From a virus, in the IMG/VR virus record IMGVR_UViG_3300021962_000584, positions 1-25,597 of that record: a DNA stretch of 25,597 bases. One strand, written 5' to 3'. Below, one piece after another: positions 11,747 through 13,863 of this stretch. The notes beneath the pieces were generated by a model. It ran no database searches. It was given only the letters and a program-made list of their open reading frames with translations, and was not told the DNA's origin. The first letter of the stretch is position 1, and each line of letters opens with the position of its first letter. The position numbers and the translations under genes are program-made.

Positions 11747-12511
11747 TTACAATTCCAAGTCAAAAACATCAAGTGTTTCTTCATGGGACTTCCAGTCAGC
11801 CTTACCGCTCTTTTTTTGATTTACAAATCCAAGTCCAAGCTGATAGACGGGCTGATTGTCTATGGTCTGTTCTGTTTTTATGCCTTTTTCAACCAAGATA
11901 CTTTCTTCAAAAGTTCTCATCGTTGGATATTGTTTCCAATATTCAGGGTGTAAATTCATTTCAAGGTCTGTAATCCACTTTTCCAACATCGGTGGGGTCA
12001 GGGTATTCAAATCAAGTTTCGTTTCATTACAGAAGACCTGGTAGTCCTTTACGGACATTATTACACCTTTGGGTGTAAGACCCTTGAGTGCTATTTCATT
12101 TTTCGTTGAATATCTTACCAAAATTCCGTTGGAAGTTCTGGTTGTTTTTGTATTCTTCCATTTGGGTAGTTCATACTTGTCCTTGATAAGTTCCACAGCC
12201 TGCCATTCAACAATTTCACCAAAGTTGTTTCTAACGGGCTTCCATAACTTGTTGGAATATTCTTTAGCTAATTGCTTGGATAAATTTGTAATACTTTGAT
12301 AAACACTATCTTCAGTTGCTAAATCAGTTTCCAATCTGTCCCAAAACCAGTGGTCTTGGTTCTCATCAAGGAAATCAACTATTCCGTTGAAGATATTATC
12401 TTCTACCAAATTCGTAGAATACTTTTTGATAAATGGTTGTAGGTCAAACCATAGTTGAAGCAAAAAATCGTCTGTGTTTGCTTCAAATGCTCCGATGTAA
12501 TTTGTTTTCAT
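11747..12511 (-). CDS. Replication-module protein of unknown function
   Basis: A 254-residue protein whose ATG overlaps the stop of the initiator-like gene (ATGA), so the two are translationally coupled. It is rich in Trp, Lys and Asp, predicted helical in the first 110 residues, with a basic middle (about 125-165) and an acidic C-terminus. There is no Walker motif, zinc site or nuclease signature, so it is not a DnaC-type ATPase or primase by sequence. By position it could be a partner of the initiator, in the way lambda P follows lambda O, loading or recruiting a host helicase; this is context-only inference and the family is not recognised. Confidence 0.6.
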   Translation of the reverse strand: MKTNYIGAFEANTDDFLLQLWFDLQPFIKKYSTNLVEDNIFNGIVDFLDENQDHWFWDRLETDLATEDSVYQSITNLSKQLAKEYSNKLWKPVRNNFGEIVEWQAVELIKDKYELPKWKNTKTTRTSNGILVRYSTKNEIALKGLTPKGVIMSVKDYQVFCNETKLDLNTLTPPMLEKWITDLEMNLHPEYWKQYPTMRTFEESILVEKGIKTEQTIDNQPVYQLGLGFVNQKKSGKADWKSHEETLDVFDLEL

Positions 12512-13287
12512 TTTTGTAAAAATTTATTTAGTTGTTCTAGTGCTAATTTATTTTGTTCTTCTTTGGATAGTTTTTTTGGTTGAGCTCTGAAATTTTTGAT
12601 TACAGCCCACGAATATATGCCATCTTGAAGATAATACGCTAATTCTTTTTTGTAATACCCTTTTTTGTTCTTTTCACTTTCCAAATATAAACAATATTTT
12701 TCCGCATTATCAAATGCTAATTTTCGTTGGACTGCGTCTAACCTGTTCCACACTTGGAATGCCTTTTCCATATTCACCCCCTCTTCGTTGTATCGTTCAA
12801 CCAAAGAAAGAAAATCAGATGGGTAGGCTGACGGCTGCCAGACAGCAGCTATACTATCATCTATATTATCTACTATATTATTTATAGACGACCTGTCTAT
12901 AGCTATAGACGAATTGTCTATAGGGTATAGACCATCTGTCGTGGGGGTATAGACATCTTGTCTATGGGGGATAGACAGATTGTCGTGGGGTTCTTCTTCA
13001 AGGGAACATACCAAATCTTCAATACCAGTAAAAATTTCAGGTTCTTTTTGAAGATAGATAAATCGTCTTTTACCATCAAAGAAAATCTTGATATATCCTT
13101 TTTCAGTAAAGTTGGAAATGATACGACTAATTTGTCTTTCAGACACCCCAATCTTATATGAAGCATATTCATTTGAAAAGCATATTGATTGCTTGGATTT
13201 ATGTAATCCAACAATAAGGGACATCAAGACATTTTCATCTGCCTTGAAGCCCTTATATGTTTGGAAGACAATAAAATTACTCTTCAT
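12508..13287 (-). CDS. Replication initiator-like winged-helix protein carrying an internal origin
   Basis: A 259-residue protein from ATG 13287. The N-terminal domain (about 1-90, starting MKSNFIVFQTYKGFKADENV) has the pattern of a phage/plasmid initiator winged helix: helices, then SNEYASYKIGVSERQISRII (HTH), KGYIKIFF strand and RFIYLQ wing. A low-complexity linker (about 110-160, Asp/Ile/Ser rich) is encoded by a repeat array resembling an origin. The C-terminal helical domain (about 165-259) resembles DnaD-like or helicase-loader-binding tails. An in-frame ATG at 13419 would give 303 residues, but overlaps the HTH gene by 143 nt; the chosen start overlaps it by only 11. The arrangement copies lambda O, where iterons lie within the gene between the DNA-binding and partner-binding domains. 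Confidence 0.75.
   Translation of the reverse strand: MKSNFIVFQTYKGFKADENVLMSLIVGLHKSKQSICFSNEYASYKIGVSERQISRIISNFTEKGYIKIFFDGKRRFIYLQKEPEIFTGIEDLVCSLEEEPHDNLSIPHRQDVYTPTTDGLYPIDNSSIAIDRSSINNIVDNIDDSIAAVWQPSAYPSDFLSLVERYNEEGVNMEKAFQVWNRLDAVQRKLAFDNAEKYCLYLESEKNKKGYYKKELAYYLQDGIYSWAVIKNFRAQPKKLSKEEQNKLALEQLNKFLQK
12849..12884. repeat. Three tandem AT-rich 12-mers (candidate DNA unwinding element)
   Basis: CTATACTATCAT, CTATATTATCTA and CTATATTATTTA follow each other without gaps at 12849, 12861 and 12873. They sit directly beside the five iterons, as the AT-rich 13-mers do at many bacterial and phage origins. Confidence 0.7.
12883..12988. repeat. Five dyad iterons (candidate replication origin)
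   Basis: Five 19-bp units start at 12883, 12904, 12926, 12948 and 12970: TATAGACGACCTGTCTATA, TATAGACGAATTGTCTATA, TATAGACCATCTGTCGTGG, TATAGACATCTTGTCTATG, GATAGACAGATTGTCGTGG. Consensus TATAGAC-N5-GTCTATA, an inverted repeat. Periods are 21, 22, 22 and 22 bp, two helical turns, so an initiator would bind one face. The period is not a multiple of three, so selection is on DNA rather than on the encoded peptide. Confidence 0.8.
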
Positions 13288-13483
13288 TCTTATTGTCTTC
13301 AAAAGTGATGTATCCCCAACGACCATTTGGATTTGTTGGGTCTTCCATTCCAAGACGAATTTTTCTAATGTGTCCCGCAGACACTCCGTAATCTCTGGCA
13401 ATCGTGGTTGATTTTTCACCCGATGCTAAACGCTTCTTGATTTGACGAATTACACGCAAACCATACAATTTGATTTTTGGCAT
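13277..13483 (-). CDS. Small helix-turn-helix protein
   Basis: A 68-residue protein beginning MPKIKLYGLRVIRQIKKRLA. The middle (about 22-45) is a clear resolvase/homeodomain-like HTH: SGEKSTTIARDYGVSAGHIRKI, with recognition helix around VSAGHIRKI. A short NPNGRWGYITF strand follows, as in HTH modules attached to phage homing nucleases, but no nuclease is present. It is the first minus-strand gene after the divergent control region and is preceded by the promoter at 13539-13567 and a palindrome at 13511-13525 in its own leader, so it could regulate itself and the replication operon. It overlaps the start of the initiator gene by 11 nt. Confidence 0.75.
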   Translation of the reverse strand: MPKIKLYGLRVIRQIKKRLASGEKSTTIARDYGVSAGHIRKIRLGMEDPTNPNGRWGYITFEDNKNEE

Positions 13484-13510
13484 TTTACTAATTTTTTTTG
13501 TTTCTGTTTA

Positions 13511-13525
13511 TTATGTGTTCCATAA
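13511..13525. promoter_or_regulatory. Candidate operator palindrome
   Basis: TTATG, 5 nt, CATAA: a perfect 5-bp inverted repeat in the leader of the HTH gene, downstream of its predicted promoter. Its position would suit autoregulation by the HTH protein. The arms are short, so chance is possible. Confidence 0.35.
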
Positions 13526-13538
13526 GGGAATACAATAA

Positions 13539-13567
13539 TAAATATAACATTCTAACAGAAAAGTCAA
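13539..13567 (-). promoter_or_regulatory. Promoter-like module for the replication operon
   Basis: TTGACT (13562-13567) and TATATT (13541-13546) spaced 15 bp on the minus strand, sharing the 13-mer GTTATATTTATTA and the TTGACTTT box with 9458-9487. The leader to the ATG at 13483 contains ATAAACA (13505-13511). Confidence 0.5.
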
Positions 13568-13595
13568 GCGACCATAAAAAAAAAGTTCCAAAAGG

Positions 13596-13647: not shown

Positions 13648-13863
13648 ATGAAAACAATTTATATTGATTACCCTGTTGAAATGTCCTTCAACACAAAAAA
13701 AGAGTTTCAAAACAACGATGAACGCACTACCTATCTTCATCAGGTTTTGCGTAGAAAGAAAGTTGATAGTCCCTGCCACGCTTATACTGACTATGTGGTA
13801 GAACACGCAGATATTGCCCCTATCAAACAAGATAATTGGGAAGTATGGGCTGTTGGTTCGTAA
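13648..13863 (+). CDS. Hypothetical small protein, plus-strand gene
   Basis: A 71-residue protein starting MKTIYIDYPVEMSFNTKKEF, one of only two plus-strand genes. It is soluble, with a beta strand start, a helical middle (ERTTYLHQVLRRKK) and a Trp-containing end (WEVWAVGS). A perfect Bacteroidetes promoter lies just upstream, which supports expression. The opposite orientation to all neighbours and the closeness to the replication control region suggest an early or regulatory role; the family is not recognised. Confidence 0.7.
   Translation: MKTIYIDYPVEMSFNTKKEFQNNDERTTYLHQVLRRKKVDSPCHAYTDYVVEHADIAPIKQDNWEVWAVGS

Follow-up and report, generated by a model that had tools for sequence, protein, structure and literature searches.

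A predicted replication origin inside its own initiator gene, apparently exchanged as a winged-helix and iteron cassette between related tailed phages

Iteron array and initiator gene

The DNA analysed here (the window) is the 25,597-bp virus record IMGVR_UViG_3300021962_000584, in which the terminase large subunit, the portal and other tailed-phage genes were recognised. Its minus strand carries a predicted replication initiator gene with an array of repeats in its middle (Table 1). The reading frame runs from an ATG at 13287 to a stop at 12508; a GTG at 13419 merely lengthens the frame into the upstream open reading frame (ORF). Five 19-bp dyads (iterons) occupy 12883-12988, with steps of 21, 22, 22 and 22 bp along the plus strand, and are adjoined by three tandem 12-mers at 12846-12857, 12858-12869 and 12870-12881. 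An earlier note on this DNA, made from the letters alone, had described three 12-mers and five dyads of this spacing, which was confirmed, the 12-mers being placed from 12846. The dyad consensus given there, TATAGAC-N5-GTCTATA, fits three of the five dyads in full; the dyads at 12926-12944 and 12970-12988 each have one degraded arm (GTCGTGG).

The same note had held that the iterons are kept as DNA and not as peptide, and this was borne out. The iteron centres occupy all three reading frames, and the dyad-array score of 67 out of 75 was reached by none of 200 synonymous-codon shuffles with the protein held fixed (maximum 60). The arrays of two related contigs, L005 and L006, gave the same result (0/200 each). 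In a scan of the whole window the array was the top dyad array (56 out of 60; runner-up place 44), and the 34-nt AT-rich tract belongs to the lowest 5% of window GC. For the 12-mers, unlike the iterons, repetition at the level of the peptide is conceivable from the sequence, their period being divisible by three and the encoded peptides being NIVD, NIDD and SIAA.

Within the protein, the iterons encode a linker and the 12-mers open the C-terminal domain. The array lies, as had been proposed, between the winged-helix (WH) and the C-terminal domain, the AlphaFold model being confident solely for the N-terminal WH. Foldseek returned winged-helix regulators and Rep N-terminal domains (4pql and 4pt7, E 0.01-0.03; none below 0.001); the list also includes 5kbj, and many of the matches are repressors. 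Among the PHROG families, phrog_186 (DnaD-like helicase loader) was matched by four of four aligned members (best E 1.9e-6), the match spanning the WH and C-terminal domains (residues 31-246, E 2.6e-6), phrog_270 (replication initiation) by three of four (best E 1.3e-7) and phrog_345 (O-like) weakly by two of four (best E 0.0025). RepA_N (PF06970) is absent from the Pfam matches of the initiator, the likeness to RepA_N being structural alone.

Table 1. Features of the predicted origin region and its neighbourhood (window coordinates)
Feature	Position	Strand	Remarks
Replication initiator gene (predicted), 259 aa	12508..13287	-	Winged helix, iteron-encoded linker, putative C-terminal recruiting domain; matches to phrog_186 and phrog_270
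WH DNA-binding domain (predicted), residues about 10-80	13048..13260	-	AlphaFold pLDDT 62-87; Foldseek
Iteron 1 (gene order; distal)	12970..12988	none	One arm degraded
Iteron 2	12948..12966	none	
Iteron 3	12926..12944	none	One arm degraded
Iteron 4	12904..12922	none	
Iteron 5 (nearest AT-rich tract)	12883..12901	none	Centre 12 bp away from the tract
AT-rich unwinding element (predicted)	12846..12881	-	12-mers ATAATATAGTAG ATAATATAGATG ATAGTATAGCTG; 31-nt core identical in 4/4 contigs
C-terminal domain	12511..12879	-	86-100% identity among relatives; low-confidence model
Exchangeable specificity cassette (WH domain and iterons), about 405 bp	12883..13287	-	From comparison of window and L006
Next gene, 254 aa	11747..12511	-	ATGA overlap with initiator; 94-100% identical in relatives
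Small helix-turn-helix (HTH) gene upstream, 68 aa	13277..13483	-	Conserved cassette flank; 204/207 nt identical to L005; weak HTH_7 match

Covariation and cassette exchange

Relatives of the initiator gene were found among viral contigs in L001, L005 and L006 (the full contig of L006 is L015). None was found in isolate phages, plasmids or bacterial genomes, and there was no tblastn match in the phage collection; the WH halves of L005 and L006, used as queries for donor phages, returned the same contigs alone. The C-terminal half, the 12-mer core and the upstream gene are constant across the four contigs, and the WH domain varies together with the iterons, which are of the type TAGAC-N5-GTCTA in the window, GGAAY-N3-RTTCC in L001 and L005 and TAATC-N5-GATTA in L006. 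All three types are present in five copies with steps of 21-22 bp, and in all three a distance of 12 bp separates the centre of the last iteron from the point where the AT-rich core starts. Conservation of the dyads in related phages, named in the earlier note as a check, was found in their number, period, position and distance from the AT-rich tract, kept to the base pair, with iteron sequence and WH changing together, a stronger outcome than the check had called for.

The boundaries of the variable part are clean. An alignment of the window with L006 shows no difference in the 113 bp leading up to the start codon (113/113), then about 405 bp of diverged sequence, and beyond these 99.9% identity over 12.9 kb, a stretch of L015 that runs from the AT-rich tract to the window end. 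The part encoding the recognition helix and wing shows 39% identity, followed by 124 codons with 100% identity. Since third-base differences amount to 0.42 in the WH segment and to 0 over these 124 codons, the divergence is attributed to exchange and not to drift. In the comparison with L005, conservation extends over the first 40 residues (90%), and the recognition helix, the wing and the iterons differ. As judged from these alignments, the WH and the iterons are one specificity unit swapped en bloc among relatives, the breakpoints being close to the start codon, or else inside the WH domain, on one side and at the AT-rich tract on the other. Such exchange would presumably be favoured by selection.

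Phase variation by means of a second cassette copy was considered and rejected: the window has a single copy of the gene, and neither a GGAAY-type nor a TAATC-type dyad array was found there. The single gene copy and the absence of other-type arrays from the window make exchange between genomes the preferred explanation.

A lone dyad of the L005 type, GGAACGACATTCC (GGAAC-GAC-ATTCC), is located at L006:407-419, 22 bp upstream of the first L006-type iteron and in register with it. It is the sole such near-match in the examined part of the L006 contig and is apparently left over from a previous type of origin. In the arrays of both the window and L006, degraded arms are found at the alternate positions 1 and 3.

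Blind search with the iteron pair

The query TAGAC-N5-GTCTA-N5..8-TAGAC-N5-GTC alone was used for a blind scan of 2.9 million viral contigs, which retrieved 19 stretches, falling by our own reading into 11 unrelated clusters. In seven of the 11 clusters the array lies within an ORF with an N-terminal HTH, and all seven of these proteins match PHROG replication families; the steps of their arrays are mostly 21-23 bp. The window initiator and six of the seven found by the scan have a recognition helix of the form [SN]x[RK]x[ILV][STE]R. The corresponding helices of L005 (CDRQIRN) and L006 (SVPTITR) depart from it, the GGAAT and TAATC types each keeping a single basic position out of two. Since this motif closely resembles the generic HTH consensus, it is regarded as a lead only.

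Several stretches found in these searches differ in arrangement. The initiator gene of L038 (2970-3049) has iterons alternating between two dyad versions, and the related stretches L021, L031 and L034 contain a TAGAC-type pair with no long ORF across it. One cluster (L026:2306-2341 and L029:10425-10460) has an iteron-like pair inside a terminase-like gene, probably a chance or coding similarity. The GGAAT-N3-ATTCC pair was found in 52 stretches of genome contigs, many of them resembling intergenic repeats or operator-like sites, and no initiator gene was among the covering ORFs of at least 80 aa; this pair is therefore not diagnostic in genome contigs. L048, L051, L054 and L079 are tandem 22-bp GGAATNNNATTCC repeats in Bacteroidales genomes, outside initiator genes.

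Interpretation as a replication origin

The array is very probably a theta-type phage replication origin situated inside the gene of its own initiator in the manner of lambda O, with the WH and the iterons exchanged as a cassette. The earlier assignment as phage origin and initiator is supported at the level of sequence by the covariation, the geometry and the PHROG replication families. The WH domains of the initiator would bind the five dyads, which follow one another at intervals of about two helical turns on the same face of the DNA, to form a nucleoprotein complex, and this complex would melt the adjacent AT-rich 12-mers. The host helicase and primase would then be brought in by the C-terminal domain, which is constant, alone or together with the product of the next gene.

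Several observations weigh against this interpretation. The GC skew gives no origin signal, being uninformative with nearly all genes on one strand; the C-terminal domain has no confident fold in the low-confidence AlphaFold model; the family matches of the initiator are modest; and of the only three relatives found, L001 and L005, although from different data sets, are nearly identical (99.96% over 2.4 kb).

The dyads would also suit a dimeric WH repressor, and many of the Foldseek matches are repressors; the dyads could then represent an autoregulatory operator or a partition-like site of the WH protein, with replication starting elsewhere. This is very unlikely given that the array lies in the middle of the gene, with an invariable 12 bp between it and the AT-rich tract, that replication-initiation families are matched by proteins carrying these iterons, and that the window contains no competing array. 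It is scarcely credible that the repeats are a coding feature, kept by peptide selection on a low-complexity linker: the centres of the iterons fall into three frames, synonymous shuffles destroy the array, and the peptide identity of the linker between relatives is 14-25%, even though the in-frame 12-mers and the poor conservation of the encoded linker might be taken in favour of this reading.

It is likewise improbable that the window and L006 differ in their cassettes through an assembly chimera. L006 begins just 113 bp before the gene, much as it would at a break in an assembly graph, and a mixed sample could attach either cassette to common flanks. However, both versions have intact frames, each with its own matched pair of WH and iterons in the same 12-bp register, and L001 and L005 carry a third pair in two other data sets. 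Where flanks are shared, chimeras may arise in metagenomic contigs; since the junctions are local, this caveat concerns the linkage of a cassette to distant flanks.

Comparison with known systems

In-gene iteron origins are known in lambda and Stx phages (PMC7466680). The comparison with the lambda origin drawn in the earlier note holds in anatomy: in J02459, gene O has four annotated iterons mid-gene followed by an AT-rich tract, and P overlaps O by 4 bp. The window likewise has iterons and then an AT-rich tract mid-gene, between the DNA-binding and the putative recruiting half, and a next gene overlapping by 4 bp. It differs from lambda in its five dyads of other sequence at 21-22 bp, in an AT-rich tract made of 12-mers, in the alternative iteron types carried by near-identical genomes and in having no tblastn relative in the phage collection.

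In RepA_N plasmids such as pSK41, the Rep boxes are central in rep, the WH N-terminal domain binds them and the central part is a linker; in the chimeric pPR9, about 500 bp (N-terminal domain and origin) were replaced and the C-terminal domain was retained (PMC5703833). The mid-gene sites and the WH N-terminus, together with Foldseek matches 4pql, 4pt7 and 5kbj, resemble such RepA_N and DnaD-like plasmid initiators, whereas the window initiator lacks a Pfam RepA_N match, belongs to a phage and not a plasmid, and has constant AT-rich 12-mers. In the PLE satellites of Vibrio cholerae, the DNA-binding domain covaries with the iterons, replication from cognate origins only was shown experimentally, and an origin-directed phage nuclease was proposed as the selector (PMC8263062). 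Here, too, DNA-binding domain and iterons are replaced together and the C-terminal domain is kept; in PLEs, however, the origin is intergenic and apart from repA, in contrast to one 405-bp cassette within one gene of a tailed phage.

What is new in the present case is that near-identical tailed phages differ by a 405-bp cassette inside one gene, that the 12-bp register is conserved and the AT-rich element fixed, and that an apparent relic iteron is present; no paper on such exchange in phages of this kind was found in the part of the literature searched. A predicted origin is thereby placed in an uncultivated phage to which the annotated phage collection contains no close relative, and an exchange of origin specificity is resolved to about 405 bp between otherwise near-identical genomes. 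Tentatively, and with more doubt than confidence, in-gene origins might be viewed as specificity cassettes that phage populations exchange rapidly under pressure from enemies that target origins, from satellites or from competing relatives. Since each such gene carries a DNA-binding domain plus its own binding sites, these genes might also be a self-labelled record that gives a winged-helix recognition code. With protein and target contained in each gene, it becomes testable what selects new phage origin specificities and how winged-helix residues specify half-sites.

Neighbouring genes and genome map

The next gene (11747-12511) had no family match in profile scans and its AlphaFold model was unusable; by analogy with lambda P, its position and the ATGA overlap make it a possible loader or partner of the initiator. 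The ORFs scanned yielded no recognisable helicase, primase or polymerase. L015 runs on for 2,256 bp past the window end before it meets the window's opposite end; since it bridges both ends, a map of about 27.85 kb, circular or circularly permuted, is indicated. The approximately 2.3 kb missing from the window (L015, 13412-15667) are taken up by a large gene that runs on out of the window and by a 738-aa ORF, and are tail-like by position. The lack of recognised replication enzymes among the scanned ORFs, together with the filling of this extra piece by two large ORFs, fits dependence on the host. The best matches of the terminase are from Bacteroides and Phocaeicola phages (about 33% identity).

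A small divergent ORF at 13648-13863 (plus strand) is absent from L005, which has a different small ORF beside the replication operon; by sequence comparison, this difference represents a second local exchange. Before the small HTH gene, a conserved stretch at 13480-13580 (minus strand), common to L005, contains TTGACTTTTCTG...TTATATTTATTATTG and then an inverted motif of the TTATGGAACACA type, and is a possible promoter or operator.
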